A DNA stretch of 41,617 nt, taken from the NCBI GenBank assembly GCA_013387205.1, contig WARV01000023.1:1-41617 (forward strand), read 5' to 3'. The notes under the pieces are model-generated. The model worked only from the letters and a program-made list of their open reading frames with translations. It was not told where the DNA came from and did not search any database. The stretch is from Patescibacteria group bacterium (GTDB lineage Bacteria > Patescibacteriota > Doudnabacteria > UBA920). A program made the translations under genes and the position numbers. Positions 17,531 through 31,330 of the stretch are shown one piece after another (the first letter of the stretch is position 1; the number at the start of each line of letters is the position of its first letter).

Positions 17531-17620
17531 AAATTTTTGGCTTACTTGTCAGATTTGTCTATTTTCTTGAGCAAAAATTTGTTTTATGGCTTATACAAGC
17601 GATATTTTGGCAAAAAACCG

Positions 17621-17649
17621 TTGACTTAAAGGGAAAAAGAGCGTATAAT
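17621..17649 (+). promoter_or_regulatory. strong sigma70-type promoter
   Basis: TTGACT (17621-17626), 17-nt spacer, TATAAT (17644-17649). It implies a ~270-nt leader before ATG 17927. Confidence 0.85.
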
Positions 17650-17655
17650 GATTCC

Positions 17656-17926
17656 AGAAAGTGCTAATTGGCACTCTTTTTTAATAACACGAAATAAGCC
17701 AATCTAAGCCAACTTTCGCTAGGTACCATAATTAAAGCTAGTTTCTTTAGTCTAAAGCTTATGGTACCGCGGCTGTTGTATCCACTTCTCACCATTTCAC
17801 CCTAGCCTTAAAAAAGCTAGGCGAGAAGCCTTGGATGCAGGTCCACAGTCGTTCCTTAAAAACCAGATGGTTTGTTCCGCTTGAAGCGGGATAAACATTA
17901 GGGGAGAAAGGAGTTTGATTTTAAAA
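17656..17926 (+). promoter_or_regulatory. long structured 5' leader of unknown class
   Basis: Order by eye: (a) AGTGC/GCACT hairpin plus T7 at 17660-17682; (b) GGTACCATA (17722-17730) / TATGGTACC (17760-17768); (c) a four-step stem: CGGCTGT (17770-17776)/ACAGTCG (17845-17851), ATCCA (17780-17784)/TGGAT (17832-17836), CTTCTC (17785-17790)/GAGAAG (17823-17828), CCTAGC (17801-17806)/GCTAGG (17816-17821); (d) small AACC/GGTT and CCGCTT/AAGCGG hairpins. AAAGGAG (17907-17913) then precedes the ATG by 13 nt. It does not match riboswitch consensus sequences I recall. Confidence 0.6.
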
Positions 17927-18622
17927 ATGAAAGCTCTTTTTAACCTTGAACCTGCATTAGAAAAAAGCTTTGTCACAATGGCTTTGCTCTGCTTAGTGTT
18001 AATAGCCTATCCGCAGCATTTGTTGATGGCCGCTAACGTGCAGGAAAAAGGAAGTAATCAGGCTTTAGTCTTTGAAATCAAAGATCCAAGCTTAATAGCA
18101 AGTATAACGAACCCTAGCTCTTTAACATACGACCAAATCGTTGAAAACGATCCATTAGTTCCTAAACTCCAAGATTATTTGGTAAAGTATAATTCTCCGC
18201 TGGCGCCTTACGCTGCGGAAATTATCAAACAGCCCCAATGGCAGAGAGCCTTAGCCATTTCCTGGGTGGAAAGCAACTTCGGCCAGCACTGTTACGATAA
18301 CAATTGTAGCGGTATTGGCGTAGAACCGGGACATCCGTCCTGGCGCAAATATGCCACCAAACTGGACTGGTTTAAGGACATGAGCCAATTATTGGAAAAG
18401 CCGATATACAAGGAACGCTATACCACCTTCGAAAAGATGAGAGGTATTTACGTTTATCCGGGAAGCTCTTCCTGGGTGTATGGGGCCAAAACCAAATACG
18501 CCGAATTAATGGCTTTGGAAAAAGAAGCTAATGAAGAAAGGCAGCTGGCTGCTGAAAACTCAACCACGGTAATTACCGCGGCTTCCCAGAATCCGGAATT
18601 AGCCAGCTTAACCAGAAAATAA
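17927..18622 (+). CDS. secreted lysozyme-like (glucosaminidase-type) protein
   Basis: 231 aa. A membrane helix or signal segment (residues ~14-36, VTMALLCLVLIAYPQHLLMAA) precedes a polar region and a lysozyme-like domain at about 90-185. It includes ALAISWVESNFGQHCYDNNCSGIGVEPG, with a candidate catalytic Glu in SWVESNFG, then WFKDMSQLLEKPIYKERYTTFEKMRGIYVYPGSSSWVYG, which parallels the GH73/Rpf-type helical core. It would cleave peptidoglycan outside the membrane. The Cys pair (HCYDNNCSG) may form a disulfide. The start ATG 17927 uses AAAGGAG; TTG 17915 is too close to that SD. The promoter and long folded leader suggest tight regulation. Confidence 0.72.
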   Translation: MKALFNLEPALEKSFVTMALLCLVLIAYPQHLLMAANVQEKGSNQALVFEIKDPSLIASITNPSSLTYDQIVENDPLVPKLQDYLVKYNSPLAPYAAEIIKQPQWQRALAISWVESNFGQHCYDNNCSGIGVEPGHPSWRKYATKLDWFKDMSQLLEKPIYKERYTTFEKMRGIYVYPGSSSWVYGAKTKYAELMALEKEANEERQLAAENSTTVITAASQNPELASLTRK

Positions 18623-24247: not shown

Positions 24248-27200
24248 ATGAAATTTAAGGTTACAAAATTCACAACATTGCCGTTTCATAGCGGAAAAGC
24301 TTTGCTGATGCGCGTTGCTTTGGGTTTGGCGGCTCTGATGGCGGTGGGAGTTTTGGCATACGGAAGCGCTCCCACCCCCCTGCAGGCGGCCGTTCCAAAC
24401 TATGTCAATTATCACGGCCGTTTGCGGGACTCTTCCGGCAAGCCGGTAAGCACTGCTGTCACTATCCAATTCGCGCTTTATAATAGCGGAGAGTCAGGGT
24501 CGGTTGCTGACAGCCCATCCAAGACAGGACCTTTGTTGTGGACTGAAATTTACGACGGCTTGTCCGAAGCCTGTCCAAAAGTAATTCCTGACAGCGAAGG
24601 GTATTTTTCTGTTGAACTGGGATCTTGTATAAGCTTGCCTAGATATCTTAATTTTTCCAAGCCTTTATATTTGGGGCTCAAAGTGGAGTCTGATGACGAA
24701 ACCACCCCCCGCCTGCTGATGACCACTTTTCCATATGCGTTTAATGCGGCAACCGTGGGTGATAATATTATGGCCACTACTACGCCTACGGCCGGGCAAC
24801 TGCTTGCCTTGGATTCGGGTTTGAACTTTAACATAAACACCGGCTCGTTTTACGGAGCTTCGCTAACCCTTGCCAGCACTACGGCAACCTCTGCCATTGC
24901 AGGCAACTTGCAGGTAGGCAACCTTTCGCAGGTTAACGGGGTAACCTACAACTGGCCTGCAGTGCAGGGCGGAACCGGATCGGTTTTAACCAATGACGGA
25001 TCGGGTAATCTTTCCTGGTCTGTTCTCGATTCGTCGGGTTCCTTGCTGCCGGCAGGCGGCAATGGCGGATCAGTAATGTACTATACAGGCAGAGGATACA
25101 ACCTAACCAGCAGCGGCCTAATGGGGCAAGTTCTGACATCTTCCGGCTCTTCCACCGCTCCCACATTCTTAGATTTGCGCTCCCTATTGACCAACGGGGG
25201 CAATATTGTCATTACCGGAACCACCACGCCTACGATTGCCGTAACTAATGCGCCAAGCTTCAGTTCGGTAAACGGGCTTGGCATTACTTCGCTGTCGGAT
25301 GGTTTTACTCTTTCAGGCGGGGCTGCGTCTCGCACGTTTACGGTAACTGGCGGCAGTGTAACTATTATTGGCCACGGCCATGTGCTGACTTTAAACAGCG
25401 ATATCACTCTTGATCAGGACTTAAACGCAACTTCCACGCCAGGTTTTTCTTCCCTTAGGTTAAATAATCCTTTGGCTATGCTTTATGGCGGCACCGGGTC
25501 CTCTCAATTTTCCAAAGGGGCGGTGCTTTATGGCAACAACACCGGATCGCTGCTGTCAACACTTCCTCCTTCTCCGGGGCAGGTGCTGATTGGTGATAAT
25601 TCCGGCTTGCCGGTATTTATGACTATTAAGGGTGACGGTACGGTTGATACTGCCGGAACCTTTACGCTTGCGAACACATCAGTGACTTCAGGTACTTACG
25701 GAAGCCCTTCAAGCGTGCCAGTCTTTACCGTGGACAGCAAGGGCAGGTTAACCTCGGCGGCTAACGTGCCTATTTCTGGCGTGGCTCCCGGGGGAGCTGC
25801 GGGCGGGGATTTGGCGGGCAATTTCCCTAATCCGACAGTGGCCAAGATAAACGGCGTCGGCTTGAGCGATGTTACTGCGGGTAATGGATATTTGTTGATT
25901 GGCGGCGGAACAGTATGGGAATCTCACTTGCTATTTGGCGACGCTTCGGTGGACGCCAATGGCCGTTTGGATTTAACCCTTACCGGGGCTACCGCAGGGA
26001 CATTTGGCGGAGCTGCATCGATTCCGGTAATCTCCGTCGATGCCAAGGGTAGGATTATTTCGTCTTCCCAGGTACCGCTGCTGGTTTCTCCTGAACAGTT
26101 CAGCTCTATAGTTCCAGTAGCTAAAGGCGGGACCGGGGCGACGAGCCTTACAGGAATTTTAAAGGGTAATGGCACTTCCTCCGTAACCTCAATTACCGCG
26201 CCGACTTCAACCGTACCCCGCTTTATTGATTCTGCCACGCTTGGTGCAGGGTCCATTTACGATACGGGAAGCAAAGTGGGTATTGGGACCACTATGCCGA
26301 ATAATTTTCAGCTGCAAATTGTCGGCAATGCGGGACCGGATATAGATAATGCTTATAACTTAGGTTCTGCCGGCATCCGCTGGTCCGGCGTGTATGCAGC
26401 GAATGTGGATGCCCTGACAATATCGCCGGTCTCCATCACGACACGAGACAACAGCTTTAACTGGAGCGGCACAACGCACCGCCTTGGCATTGGCACCACG
26501 ACCCCCCAAGGAGTTTTGGGTGTGGTCGGAGATGTTGTTATTGATGGCAGGTTGGTATTAAATAATGCGCTGACTCCGGGAGGCGATGCCGGTACTGCAG
26601 GTTACGCTCTGGTTTCCCGCGGTTCGGGCCTGGCCCCAGTATGGCAGAGCCTGAACGCGGCTTTGAATTCCAACGCAATTTTGCAGGGCGGTAATAGCTT
26701 TGCTGCCACCACAACCATTGGTACTACCGACAACTATCCGCTGGCCTTTGAAACCAACGGCAGCGAAAAATTAAGAATTACCCAGGCTGGCAATGTAGGC
26801 GTAGGAACTATCAATCCGGCTGGATTTAAACTGCAGATTGCCGGAGATGTTGGCCCTGACAGTAACGGAGTTTACAATATTGGTTCTCCTGCCCTCCGTT
26901 ATAACAATGTTTATGCAAATAATTTTGCCGGAGCGATTACTCCGACCGGGTTTACCGCCGGTTCGGTGGCTTTTGGCGGAGTGTCCGGAATTTTATCACA
27001 AGACAATAACCTGTTTTGGGAAAACTCGACTAAACGGCTGGGGGTTGGAACTTCCACGCCCCAACAGACTTTGAGCGTGGGCGGTAATATTTACTTGTCC
27101 GGCGCCTTTATGCCGGGCAATAATGCCGGTACCTCGGGGCAGCTTTTGGTATCCCAAGGTCCGGGCGCTGCTCCGGTTTGGCAGGGGATCGACATGGTTA

Positions 27201-30200
27201 CGGGCGGTATGATTCTACAAAACGGCAATAGTTTTGCCACGACTACTTCAATCGGCACCAATGACAATTACCCGTTAACTTTTAAAACCAATGGTAACGA
27301 GAAGATAAGAATAACTCCATCCGGTTCAATGGGAGTTGGCACCGCGAGTCCTACGGTTTTTAAATTACAAGTTGCCGGAAATATAGGGCCTGATGCAGAT
27401 GCCGCCTATAGTTTGGGTTCTAGCGCGTATCGGTGGACAGATGTGTACGGACAAAATTTACGCGGCGATATCTACCCGACCGGTTTTACTTCAGGATTCT
27501 TGGCGTTCGGCGGCGCTACCGGCAAGTTAAGCCAGAGTAATGATTTGTACTGGGACAATGCGGCCGGCCGCTTCGGAATCGGCACCTCAACGCCGCAACA
27601 AAGTTTGTCCGTAAATGGCAGCATCTCTTTAACCGGGGCGCTAATGCCGGACAATAATGCCGGTGCCTCCGGTTCGCTGCTGGTTTCCCGCGGTCCTGGT
27701 TTGACTCCGGTATGGCAAAATGTCAATACGGCCATCAATAGCGCTGCGCTGATGCAGGGCGGTAATAGTTTTGGTGATACTTTGTCTCTTGGTACGAAAG
27801 ATAATTATCCGCTGGCATTTATCGTTAATGGCATCGAACAGGCAAGGGTGAGCAGCGCAGGAATAGGAATTGGTACTACCAGTCCTGCTTATCCTCTTGA
27901 TATCAATACGGGCAGTTGGGGCGTGCGCGTGGGAAGCGTGAATGATATCAGAATTTCCCCGACTACAATTACTGCATTTACTAACAACACGCCGACCACC
28001 CTGACTTTGGGAGGGCCGGTGCAGATTTCAGGCAACACGACCATTTCAGGTCTGGGAAACGGCGTTGTACATTCTGATATTTCCGGGAAACTTTCCACCT
28101 CGCTTTTGAATATGTCAACTGAAGTTACAAGCATGCTGTCTGTAGGAAACGGAGGCACTGGTGCCACATCTTTCGCTTCAAACGGCGTGATATACGGTAA
28201 CAGCTCTTCGGCTTTACAGGCGACGCTGGCGCCGTTGCCCGGCCAACTGCTTATAGGCAATACCGGCGGCACTCCTTCTTTTACCACTATTTCCGGCGAC
28301 GCCACGATAACTCCGACGGGATTGTTCAGTCTGGCATCCACGGCAGTGGCGGCAGGCACGTATGGAAGCGGCGCATCTATCCCTACGTTTACGGTTGATA
28401 GCAAAGGCCGGATAACGTATGCCACTTCCACTTTGCTTTCCGGCATGCCGCCGGGAGGAACGGCAAGCGGTGATCTTTCCGGCAGCTATCCCGGTCCTAC
28501 TGTGACTCGAATTAACGGCGCGCTGTTGGGTGTCACTTCTCCGACTGCCGGAAATATCCTTATTGGCGATAGCTCAGCCTGGCAGACAAAATTTTTATCA
28601 GGTGACGCCACTCTTGATTTAAACGGAGTACTGACTCTCACCAATACAACAGTAGCCCCAGGGACATACGGCAGCGCTGTTAATGTCCCGGTGCTTGTCG
28701 TGGACAGTAAGGGAAGAATCACAAGCGCCAGCAGCACTAATCTGTCCGTACCGGCATCAGTCATTACATCAGGCGTGCTTCCGGTTATTTATGGAGGCAC
28801 CGGGGCCACTGGCCTGACAGGTATCTTAAAGGGTAACGGCACCTCTTCCGTAAGTTCGCTGACTGGCATAGCAAATTACACGGCCCGCTGGACAGATGCT
28901 TATACGTTGGGATCTGGCGCGGTATTCGATAACGGCACCAATATATCCGTTGGCACCAACACTGCCGCTTCGTTATTTAACGTCGGCACTAATAATGATT
29001 TCCAAATAAATTCGGCCGGCGACATAGTTCGCATTAACGGCGTAAGTTATAACTGGCCAACTGTACAAGGGTTAAACAGCACTTATTTAAGAAATGACGG
29101 GGCAGGGCACTTATCTTGGACCTCGGCAACTGGCGGTACTCCGCCGGTCAACAACGGTATTGCAGGCCGGTTTGCTTATTATGCTGCCGCCGGTGCCGTG
29201 GTAAGTGACCAACAGATTTTATACACCGACGGGACAAGTATTGGTATTAATACTACCACACCTAAAGCGGTCTTATCCGTAGTTGCCACCAGCACGCTTG
29301 ATGCATTTGATGTGGCTTCTGTTGCCGGAACTTCATTGCTGCGCGTCGCTGCCAATGGCAACGTGGGTATTGGGACAACCTCCCCAGTGGCCACCCTGGC
29401 CGTAAACGGTGGGGCATATCTGGGCGGCAACCTGTCTTTACAAGGAACAATCAACGGAAATACGATTTCTGCCGGCACGGGAGCGTTGAATTTAAATACC
29501 TATACATTAAATCTGGCGGGTAATACGGCTTTGAACCAAAACCTGACCACCACTTCCACTCCGACTTTTGCCGGCCTGACTCTTTCCACTCCGACTACCA
29601 CCATAAATTCCGTATTATACTCCTGGCCTTCTGCTCAGGGCTCTTCCGGCCAGGTCCTGACCAACAATGGCAGCGGCAGCCTGTCCTGGACCACTGTAAG
29701 CGGCAGTTCTTCAATCAACCCTTGGGTATCAAGCGGCACCATTGTGTCTTTGGCAACCTCTACCAACAGCGTCGGAATAGGTACATCCACCCCCACTGCC
29801 CGATTAAGCGTGTCCGGCAGTATCAGTAATGTGCTTGATGGAAATTCAGGCATAACACAGGTGGGTACATTAGGCGTTTACGGACGTTCCTTGTATGTTT
29901 CCGGTAAGTACGCTTATATTGCTGACGACAGTGCCAATGCTTTGCGCATAATCGATATCTCTAATCCTAAAAATCCGGTCGCGATATCTACCACCACGAT
30001 AGGGTCAACGCCTAGAGGTATTTACGTTTCGGGAAAATATGCCTATATACCGAGTTATACCAATAATACCATTAGTATTTTTGATGTTACCAACCCTAAA
30101 GCCCCTGTCCAGGTCGGTTCCGCAGGGATAACAAGCCCCTATACCGTGTTCGTATCCGGCCGCTATGCATACGCAAACAGTACTACCACTATGGCAGTGA

Positions 30201-31330
30201 TAGACGTTTCCAATCCATTGGCTCCTGTCCAGGTCGGTGCAGTTGGGGTAGGGTCCACTCCCATGTCTATATACGTATCCGGCCACTATGCTTATGTGGC
30301 CAATTACGGCTCAAATAATATTTCGGTGATTGATATATCGAACCCCGCCTCCCCGGTATCCGTGGCAACAGTTGGCGTAGGTTCTGGCCCTGAATCTGTC
30401 TTTGTCTCCGGCCACTATGCTTATACCGCAAATGCGAATAGCGGCAACATGTCGATTGTCGATATTTCCAACCCGACTTCCCCGACTTTCATCACTTCTA
30501 TCAACACAGGAACAAGTTCATTCGGCGTGTTCGTATCCGGCCGCTATGCCTACGTTGCCAATAATGGAAGCCAAACTATTTCTATCCTTGACGTATCTAA
30601 CCCCGCCTCCCCCGTACTTATTGGCAATAAATCTGCGAATGGTGCATTATGGGTATTTGTATCCGGCCGCTATGCCTATGTGGCCGGTGGGAGTTTAAGT
30701 GTTTTTGATATCTCCGGCGTTGAGACGACTTCCTTGCTCGCCCATAGCGCGGAAGTGGGAAACCTTCAGGTTACCAATGATATTTTGACCCAAGGCCAGC
30801 TGCAAGTTACGGGAGGATTACAGGTTGCCCAGGGTGCGGAATTCTTAGGGGCAACAGCGATTAATTCAACTACTACAAACAGTTCTGTTTTTAAAATTAG
30901 CGCGGGAAACAATGCTAATATTATGACCGTATCAGGTAACGGCAATGTGGGAATTGGAGCATCAACTCCTCTAGACAAACTACACGTATACAACGGCAAT
31001 ATCTTGCTGGAAGAAAATTATGGTGTTGCAGTTAACGATGCCCAAGCTGGCGTCATCCCAATGCTGCGCTATAATGCAGGTAATGACCAGTTACAGATTG
31101 GCACTACCACGGCCAACGGCTTAACCGGCGGCATCACCTTTGACACTGCCGGAGAATCAGCCACTGCGTTAATTATTACCAATGCCGGCAACGTCGGCAT
31201 CGGCACCACCACCCCCACCCTAGGCCCCTTGGTCATGAACAGTGGGGCTTACGTTACGGCCGGGGGAGTCTGGACCAATGCTTCGGATGTGAATTTGAAG
31301 GAGAACTTCGCTAGCGTGATAACTGCCTAA
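24248..31330 (+). CDS. giant modular surface protein with LVIVD propeller and S74-type tail fragment
   Basis: 2360 aa. A signal/anchor segment lies at 19-48. The N-terminal domain (NYHGRLRDSSGKPVSTAVTIQFALY to PYAFNAATVGD) ends near 175. Then comes about 1,700 aa of low-complexity, Gly/Thr/Asn-rich tail-fibre-like repeats: GGTGATSLTGILKGNGTSS, DAKGRI-type and GIGTTTPQ...-type units. A ~175-aa unit repeats three times (nt ~26306-27890), and a ~145-aa unit appears twice (nt ~25785-26215, 28440-28870). Seven LVIVD beta-propeller blades ([YF]VSG[KRH]YAY...) span residues ~1876-2157. The end, SDVNLKENFASVITA, is the first stretch of a peptidase S74 chaperone domain, and then it stops. A role in attachment to a host or partner cell is inference. 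Confidence 0.85.
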   Translation: MKFKVTKFTTLPFHSGKALLMRVALGLAALMAVGVLAYGSAPTPLQAAVPNYVNYHGRLRDSSGKPVSTAVTIQFALYNSGESGSVADSPSKTGPLLWTEIYDGLSEACPKVIPDSEGYFSVELGSCISLPRYLNFSKPLYLGLKVESDDETTPRLLMTTFPYAFNAATVGDNIMATTTPTAGQLLALDSGLNFNINTGSFYGASLTLASTTATSAIAGNLQVGNLSQVNGVTYNWPAVQGGTGSVLTNDGSGNLSWSVLDSSGSLLPAGGNGGSVMYYTGRGYNLTSSGLMGQVLTSSGSSTAPTFLDLRSLLTNGGNIVITGTTTPTIAVTNAPSFSSVNGLGITSLSDGFTLSGGAASRTFTVTGGSVTIIGHGHVLTLNSDITLDQDLNATSTPGFSSLRLNNPLAMLYGGTGSSQFSKGAVLYGNNTGSLLSTLPPSPGQVLIGDNSGLPVFMTIKGDGTVDTAGTFTLANTSVTSGTYGSPSSVPVFTVDSKGRLTSAANVPISGVAPGGAAGGDLAGNFPNPTVAKINGVGLSDVTAGNGYLLIGGGTVWESHLLFGDASVDANGRLDLTLTGATAGTFGGAASIPVISVDAKGRIISSSQVPLLVSPEQFSSIVPVAKGGTGATSLTGILKGNGTSSVTSITAPTSTVPRFIDSATLGAGSIYDTGSKVGIGTTMPNNFQLQIVGNAGPDIDNAYNLGSAGIRWSGVYAANVDALTISPVSITTRDNSFNWSGTTHRLGIGTTTPQGVLGVVGDVVIDGRLVLNNALTPGGDAGTAGYALVSRGSGLAPVWQSLNAALNSNAILQGGNSFAATTTIGTTDNYPLAFETNGSEKLRITQAGNVGVGTINPAGFKLQIAGDVGPDSNGVYNIGSPALRYNNVYANNFAGAITPTGFTAGSVAFGGVSGILSQDNNLFWENSTKRLGVGTSTPQQTLSVGGNIYLSGAFMPGNNAGTSGQLLVSQGPGAAPVWQGIDMVTGGMILQNGNSFATTTSIGTNDNYPLTFKTNGNEKIRITPSGSMGVGTASPTVFKLQVAGNIGPDADAAYSLGSSAYRWTDVYGQNLRGDIYPTGFTSGFLAFGGATGKLSQSNDLYWDNAAGRFGIGTSTPQQSLSVNGSISLTGALMPDNNAGASGSLLVSRGPGLTPVWQNVNTAINSAALMQGGNSFGDTLSLGTKDNYPLAFIVNGIEQARVSSAGIGIGTTSPAYPLDINTGSWGVRVGSVNDIRISPTTITAFTNNTPTTLTLGGPVQISGNTTISGLGNGVVHSDISGKLSTSLLNMSTEVTSMLSVGNGGTGATSFASNGVIYGNSSSALQATLAPLPGQLLIGNTGGTPSFTTISGDATITPTGLFSLASTAVAAGTYGSGASIPTFTVDSKGRITYATSTLLSGMPPGGTASGDLSGSYPGPTVTRINGALLGVTSPTAGNILIGDSSAWQTKFLSGDATLDLNGVLTLTNTTVAPGTYGSAVNVPVLVVDSKGRITSASSTNLSVPASVITSGVLPVIYGGTGATGLTGILKGNGTSSVSSLTGIANYTARWTDAYTLGSGAVFDNGTNISVGTNTAASLFNVGTNNDFQINSAGDIVRINGVSYNWPTVQGLNSTYLRNDGAGHLSWTSATGGTPPVNNGIAGRFAYYAAAGAVVSDQQILYTDGTSIGINTTTPKAVLSVVATSTLDAFDVASVAGTSLLRVAANGNVGIGTTSPVATLAVNGGAYLGGNLSLQGTINGNTISAGTGALNLNTYTLNLAGNTALNQNLTTTSTPTFAGLTLSTPTTTINSVLYSWPSAQGSSGQVLTNNGSGSLSWTTVSGSSSINPWVSSGTIVSLATSTNSVGIGTSTPTARLSVSGSISNVLDGNSGITQVGTLGVYGRSLYVSGKYAYIADDSANALRIIDISNPKNPVAISTTTIGSTPRGIYVSGKYAYIPSYTNNTISIFDVTNPKAPVQVGSAGITSPYTVFVSGRYAYANSTTTMAVIDVSNPLAPVQVGAVGVGSTPMSIYVSGHYAYVANYGSNNISVIDISNPASPVSVATVGVGSGPESVFVSGHYAYTANANSGNMSIVDISNPTSPTFITSINTGTSSFGVFVSGRYAYVANNGSQTISILDVSNPASPVLIGNKSANGALWVFVSGRYAYVAGGSLSVFDISGVETTSLLAHSAEVGNLQVTNDILTQGQLQVTGGLQVAQGAEFLGATAINSTTTNSSVFKISAGNNANIMTVSGNGNVGIGASTPLDKLHVYNGNILLEENYGVAVNDAQAGVIPMLRYNAGNDQLQIGTTTANGLTGGITFDTAGESATALIITNAGNVGIGTTTPTLGPLVMNSGAYVTAGGVWTNASDVNLKENFASVITA

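Follow-up and report, generated by a model that had tools for sequence, protein, structure and literature searches.

A conserved structured leader before a putative GH73-like hydrolase gene in Doudnabacteria, with a clade-specific match to the mraZ promoter

The 5'-UTR of rpfB in Mycobacterium tuberculosis contains an RNA switch that is reported to act by transcriptional attenuation (PMC6009663). It shares with the locus presented here a structured, lineage-restricted leader on the gene of a cell-wall-degrading enzyme, whereas the present leader has no terminator before the gene. The ydaO/kimA riboswitch on nlpC of Corynebacterium glutamicum (PMC9960051) is likewise a leader before a wall hydrolase gene, possibly with translational control; the present leader differs in having no match to ydaO and in belonging to a host for which no diadenylate cyclase domain was found.

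Binding sites of MraZ are described as AAAGTG[T/G] direct repeats in Mollicutes (PMC8475190); in Burkholderia, the start is reported to be overlapped by four repeats of 7 nt that are separated by 3-nt spacers (PMC7761207). Part of the leader resembles these operators in its AAAGTGG-type 7-nt boxes and 3-nt spacers, present in two copies. Unlike such operators, the leader copy is reversed, has two boxes only, and lies inside a leader, within an RNA hairpin. Loop-initiated antisense RNAs expose a hairpin loop that is complementary to the 5' part of the target RNA; the same exposed-loop complementarity is found here, with two mRNA leaders as the candidate partners and the pairing predicted. Among the papers listed for riboswitches in Candidate Phyla Radiation bacteria and for Doudnabacteria, and in passages of PMC11665869, none was found that describes a structured mRNA leader native to these bacteria.

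Locus, promoter and layout of the leader

The window, by which is meant the whole stretch of 41,617 nucleotides that was analysed, is contig 16 of a 1.30-Mb genome that is 98.3% complete. A leader of approximately 270 nt (17650-17926) lies in it between a near-consensus promoter and the ATG of the hydrolase gene, with H1, H2, the P1/P2 domain, the tail, H3, the Shine-Dalgarno (SD) block, a 13-nt spacer and the ATG in 5' to 3' order:

17621-17649, plus strand: promoter, TTGACT-N17-TATAAT (-35 box TTGACT at 17621-17626, 17-nt spacer, -10 box TATAAT at 17644-17649), kept ahead of the leader in orthologues
17660-17682, plus strand: H1, a hairpin immediately behind the predicted start of transcription, with a U-run after it
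17722-17768, plus strand: H2, a predicted hairpin adjoining P1, with a hairpin in the same place in other module carriers
17770-17851, plus strand: P1/P2 domain, with a sequence module found in 10 of 15 same-family leaders
17779-17798, minus strand: mraZ-matched 20 nt, identical to the first two boxes of the putative mraZ operator of the host and to the predicted 5' end of its mraZ mRNA
17852-17859, plus strand: conserved single-stranded tail UUCCUUAA after P1, consensus NN-CYUUAA in the leader alignment
17868-17897, plus strand: H3, a predicted hairpin just 5' of the SD block
17905-17941, plus strand: extended SD AGAAAGGAG (17905-17913) complementary to 16S rRNA, then a long spacer and the ATG, with CUCUUU spanning codons 3-5
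17927-18622, plus strand: gene for a secreted-looking GH73-like glucosaminidase, named from a predicted model (LytB Z 11.0) and an invariant Glu115

A sequence-only reading of the locus had proposed a TTGACT/TATAAT promoter ~270 nt upstream of the ATG, and this was borne out, with 11 of 12 consensus positions and the ATG at 17927. The pattern TTGACN-N16-18-TATAAT occurs 44 times in the host genome, compared with 6 occurrences of its reversed control, and the promoter consensus is therefore meaningful in this genome. Just upstream of the -35 box (17583-17620), orthologues of the same family have a conserved block of roughly TTATnTAAGCCAnnnnnTGGCAAAAA (TTATACAAGCGATATTTTGGCAAAAA in the window), which has the look of an activator site. 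Thirty of the 44 strong-promoter loci were read (L138 and L139 being the same promoter). Other strong promoters (L141, L129, L134, L151) seem to have long leaders as well, a few of them with start-proximal hairpins; L141 has such a hairpin near a U-rich stretch, and L129 also has one. One frame, ~298 nt after such a start, presumably encodes a protein resembling ribosomal protein S12, and another, at ~214 nt, one resembling L27. The window also contains a 2360-aa open reading frame at 24248-31330.

The predicted fold of the leader (275 nt) has a free energy of -85.4 kcal/mol, compared with a mean of -63.5 (sd 4.8) for shuffled sequences (z -4.57; equalled by 0 of 200 shuffles). The structural outline in the sequence-only reading was confirmed: the terminator-like hairpin at the start (AGTGC TAATTG GCACT followed by CTTTTTT, the whole of H1), the long multi-step stem (the P1/P2 domain) and the SD were all found at the positions listed above. 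The 9-bp 'GGTACCATA' stem that it had noted is present as the H2 arms GGTACCATAA and TTATGGTACC, at the two ends of the H2 interval, with a length of 10 bp. P1, the closing helix, joins CGGCUG (17770-17775) to CAGUCG (17846-17851) around P2, a variable apical stem, and GGUCCA (17840-17845) lies on the 3' side of the domain.

The hydrolase matched neither GH73 nor any other Pfam or NCBIfam family at E values up to 0.1 (14 members searched), and a sequence search of the PDB gave chance-level matches only (E 0.11 or worse). A predicted model of the protein (mean pLDDT 75, above 90 for most of the domain) aligned with pneumococcal LytB (Z 11.0, rmsd 3.1 over 124 residues), with peptidoglycan hydrolases occupying the first 17 rows; the best Foldseek row for the same model had an E value of 0.19. 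Glu115, within 'VES', is invariant across orthologues, and the protein has an N-terminal hydrophobic segment. GH73-like wall hydrolase is thus used as a fair working name drawn from the model, in the sense of a protein that would work like this family rather than belong to it. Most genomes of the family also encode a second, longer protein (~300 aa) with the same domain (for example L056, G000:C3:23076-23420); no copy of the hydrolase leader was seen before this paralogue at L056 and similar loci.

Conservation and distribution among related genomes

Searches with the hydrolase protein gave matches in 20 of 22 genomes of the same family, paralogues included; across the order, 22 of 49 genomes had a match at E 1e-25. 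Readable orthologue leaders numbered 19, of which 15 are from the same family and 4 from a sister family; in G001 the contig begins inside the gene, leaving no leader. The leader structure is kept across orthologues beyond the level of shuffled sequences: the whole leader was more stable than 95% of its own shuffles in 18 of the 19, as was H1 (13 of the 19 leaders were tallied by eye and the other 6 by script). The hairpin directly 3' of the -10 box was found in 19 of 19, with its sequence replaced in G005 and G044-G047 and partly so in G004. Throughout the leader, hairpin sequences vary between genomes while hairpin positions are constant, and the P2 apical stem ranges from ~26 to ~108 nt with unrelated sequences.

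The complete module CGRCUG...GGUCMA-ACAGUCG-NN-CYUUAA is present in full or nearly so in 10 of the 15 same-family leaders (two of the carriers, G010 and G011, are near copies), and the same number keep the full succession of elements, which runs from the 5' hairpin through a second hairpin, the CGRCUG/CAGUCG helix with its GGUCMA and CUUUAA, and a further hairpin to the extended SD. Among the ten module carriers, 95% of shuffles were exceeded in stability by the P1/P2 domain in nine, by H3 in seven and by H2 in four. No recognisable P1 module was found in the leaders of G002, G017, G004 and G005.

Covariation, which the sequence-only reading had named as a check, gave a divided result in nine aligned sequences: P1 is 100% paired, with one pair changed on both sides, and sliding of the partner strands lowers pairing from 96% to 41-50%; yet with this single two-sided change, 240 of 500 letter shuffles scored as high, so that the structure was not singled out. 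The sequences being few and the pair counts modest, the structural claim rests on stability and hairpin position.

A covariance model built from nine leaders matched 12 of 49 genomes of the class, at one place each and always at the hydrolase leader; the 12 comprise the nine training sequences, G011 (the near copy of G010), G006, and G017, where the SD block only was matched. When 379 sampled genomes of the phylum were scanned, the model matched 11 that are known members of the family, plus one spurious site inside a reading frame of G309 (E 0.0097). Rfam 15 gave no match at the gathering score in the leader; with the E limit relaxed to 10 for the leader of the window and to 5 for 10 orthologue loci, nothing credible emerged. 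The lack of an Rfam match, together with the conserved hairpin order, supports the suggestion of a possible new regulatory RNA, and the leader is judged to be real, new, structured and lineage-specific, outside the catalogued families.

The c-di-AMP riboswitch raised as a candidate in the sequence-only reading found no support: there was no ydaO covariance match, and the diadenylate cyclase domain (PF02457) had 0 matches in the 98.3%-complete host genome, while 11 of 14 control genomes were positive. A c-di-AMP riboswitch is improbable for these two reasons, although c-di-AMP may be imported. A metabolite riboswitch of a new class, with GGUCMA and CUUUAA as the binding residues of the P1/P2 domain, would account for conserved unpaired residues beside a conserved helix in the nine aligned sequences; it is nevertheless decidedly improbable, as such residues are few, the leader is confined to one gene in one family of genomes, and the gene context suggests no ligand. 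Rather unlikely, too, is a passive 5' UTR in which hairpins would protect an abundant mRNA with no regulation. A hairpin at the extreme 5' end as the most conserved structural feature, and hairpin sequences that are free to vary, would be expected of such a UTR, but the conserved letters of P1, GGUCMA and CUUUAA are not needed for mere protection.

Start-proximal hairpin and translation start

With its GC-rich stem and U-run, H1 is terminator-like in sequence, and its pattern AGTGC-N2-7-GCACTNTTTT has a single occurrence in the host genome, at the hydrolase leader. A U-run of at least five follows the hairpin in 15 of the 19 leaders, which is consistent with a start-proximal attenuator, as is the ability of the H1 5' arm to pair with a later strand in some leaders (G019, G005, G020). 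Against this, there is no U-run in G004 and G045-G047, and the competing pairing, convincing by eye, exceeded shuffles (fraction <=0.02) in only 4 of 15 leaders (G019, G005, G020, G013). No antiterminator able to form before H1 was found; the competing strands are all downstream and inconsistent between genomes, and would form too late to prevent termination at H1. Attenuation is thus fairly improbable. A role of H1 as the operator of a DNA-binding protein is also unlikely, given the genomes in which its sequence is replaced and the hairpin kept.

The unusually complete SD block AGAAAGGAG is exactly complementary to CUCCUUUCU, which lies at the 3' end of the host 16S rRNA; a resemblance of the block to the 5' end of the 16S rRNA was dropped, the block being the complement of the 3' tail. 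The gap between SD and ATG (17914-17926) is unusually long at 13 nt, and is ~11-13 nt in orthologues. The SD could be masked by a hairpin (H4) in which AAAG[G]AG pairs with CUCUUU of codons 3-5, an arrangement paired in 93.8% of alignment cells and maintained with changed letters in the sister-family genomes (AAAGGAA with UUCUUU) and in G004 and G005 (GGAGTT with AACTCC). H4 is weak, being stabler than 95% of its shuffles in no more than 3 of 13 leaders, so that sequestration of the SD by codons 3-5 is no more than plausible. Pairing of GGUCMA with the spacer between SD and AUG, judged by eye, fits some leaders and not others, and was rejected.

Control of the wall hydrolase in cis by its leader is likely, as is translation or mRNA stability as the level of control. 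H1 would protect the 5' end of the mRNA or slow early transcription. Since the SD can be hidden in H4 and one hairpin follows another along the leader, translation or mRNA stability would be the main determinant of hydrolase output. The leader would in this way keep a potentially self-damaging enzyme under control.

Match to the mraZ promoter

Upstream of mraZ in the host genome (L027), a DNA search with the leader found a stretch of 23 nt that matches at 96%, a feature absent from the sequence-only reading. The 15-nt pattern ATGGTRARAAGYGGA occurs at 14 places in 22 genomes, namely nine mraZ promoters and five hydrolase leaders (G000, G008, G009, G010 and G011, the window genome among them), and nowhere else in these genomes; its reversed control occurs nowhere in them. 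MraZ is encoded in 21 of the 22 family genomes. The comparison of leader and mraZ covered 14 of 20 mraZ loci, with G003, G004, G005, G006, G014 and G021 left out because an ATGG-type first box or a clear array was missing; the region upstream of mraZ in G011 is cut by the end of the contig.

At mraZ, the matched stretch covers the two leading boxes of a series that continues at 10-bp steps 3' of the -10 box, and it coincides with the predicted initial 20 nt of the transcript. More generally, mraZ promoters of the family (L082, L080, L071, L079 and others) have well-kept AAGTGG-type boxes at 10-bp steps from the predicted +1, and the mraZ start lies ~95 to 360 nt 3' of this point. The box series, which is like the MraZ sites of the reports cited above (PMC8475190, PMC7761207), and the confinement of the pattern to mraZ and the hydrolase leader argue for a MraZ DNA operator in the transcribed leader, consisting of two reversed 7-nt boxes with a 3-nt spacer; this is a serious possibility, held with somewhat less than even confidence. 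By means of a roadblock ~120 bp past the start, MraZ might then, with equal reserve, repress the hydrolase together with its own operon. Less easily reconciled with an operator are the number of boxes (two in the leader, four or more at mraZ), the broken GTGG core of box 2 in the G008 leader copy, and a spacer-base change common to both loci in G000, which would be needless for a box-reading protein.

The same 20 nt could serve instead as RNA, the P2 loop and its 5' strand pairing with the mraZ mRNA over its first 20 nt so that the two leaders regulate each other. The element is antisense to mraZ in five of five leaders, each of which exposes the loop ACCAUUUC (ACCAUUAC in G009), and the complement starts at the predicted mraZ +1, as G(N)AATGG begins 6 nt after TATAAT in eight of eight mraZ promoters tested. 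Substitutions are common to both loci in G000 (TGAG) and G009 (GTAATGG), and a leader change in each of G008 and G009 still permits a G.U pair with mraZ. The changed stem strand of G000 also has its match within the leader, CUUCUC/GAGAAG standing where the others have U-A pairs. Co-folding of leader and mraZ predicted a net gain of -20 to -26 kcal/mol for cognates, compared with -0.3 to -7.1 for two leaders that lack the element. Direct pairing is nonetheless doubtful, if possible: an operator copied on the reverse strand yields the same complementarity for free, the cognate assignment of leaders to mraZ is equalled by 2 of 24 permutations, G010 has a mismatch to the mraZ of its own genome, and in longer contexts part of the mraZ 5' end is folded. 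Of the two readings, the operator within the leader ranks as somewhat likelier than pairing of the two RNAs.

In genus g9 the P1/P2 module is present but the mraZ element is absent, so that the link to mraZ is a clade-specific addition to a more widespread leader. With confidence a little above even, we favour a lineage-specific structured mRNA leader that would act in cis on a secreted GH73-like hydrolase and, in one clade, carry a tie through mraZ to division. This reading is favoured because the leader folds beyond its shuffles, with its order kept in 10 of 15 and H1 in 19 of 19; because it has one copy per genome, at the hydrolase, and no Rfam family; and because the SD is a 16S complement, its pairing with the codons is kept with changed letters, and the mraZ element is found at two loci only. 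It is weakened by the small number of sequences, by the weak formal covariation, by H4 being no stabler than shuffles in 10 of 13 leaders and by the absence of the P1 module from four leaders.

In the clade of the window, the mraZ-matched element in P2 would tie the hydrolase to the division (dcw) programme, either through MraZ acting on DNA or through pairing with the mraZ mRNA. If the pairing is real, wall cutting and the division programme would be cross-regulated by RNA, with the MraZ operator doubling as an RNA target. A conserved hydrolase leader matched to the mraZ transcript start in one clade offers a concrete and testable connection between division and the remodelling of the wall in genome-reduced cells.
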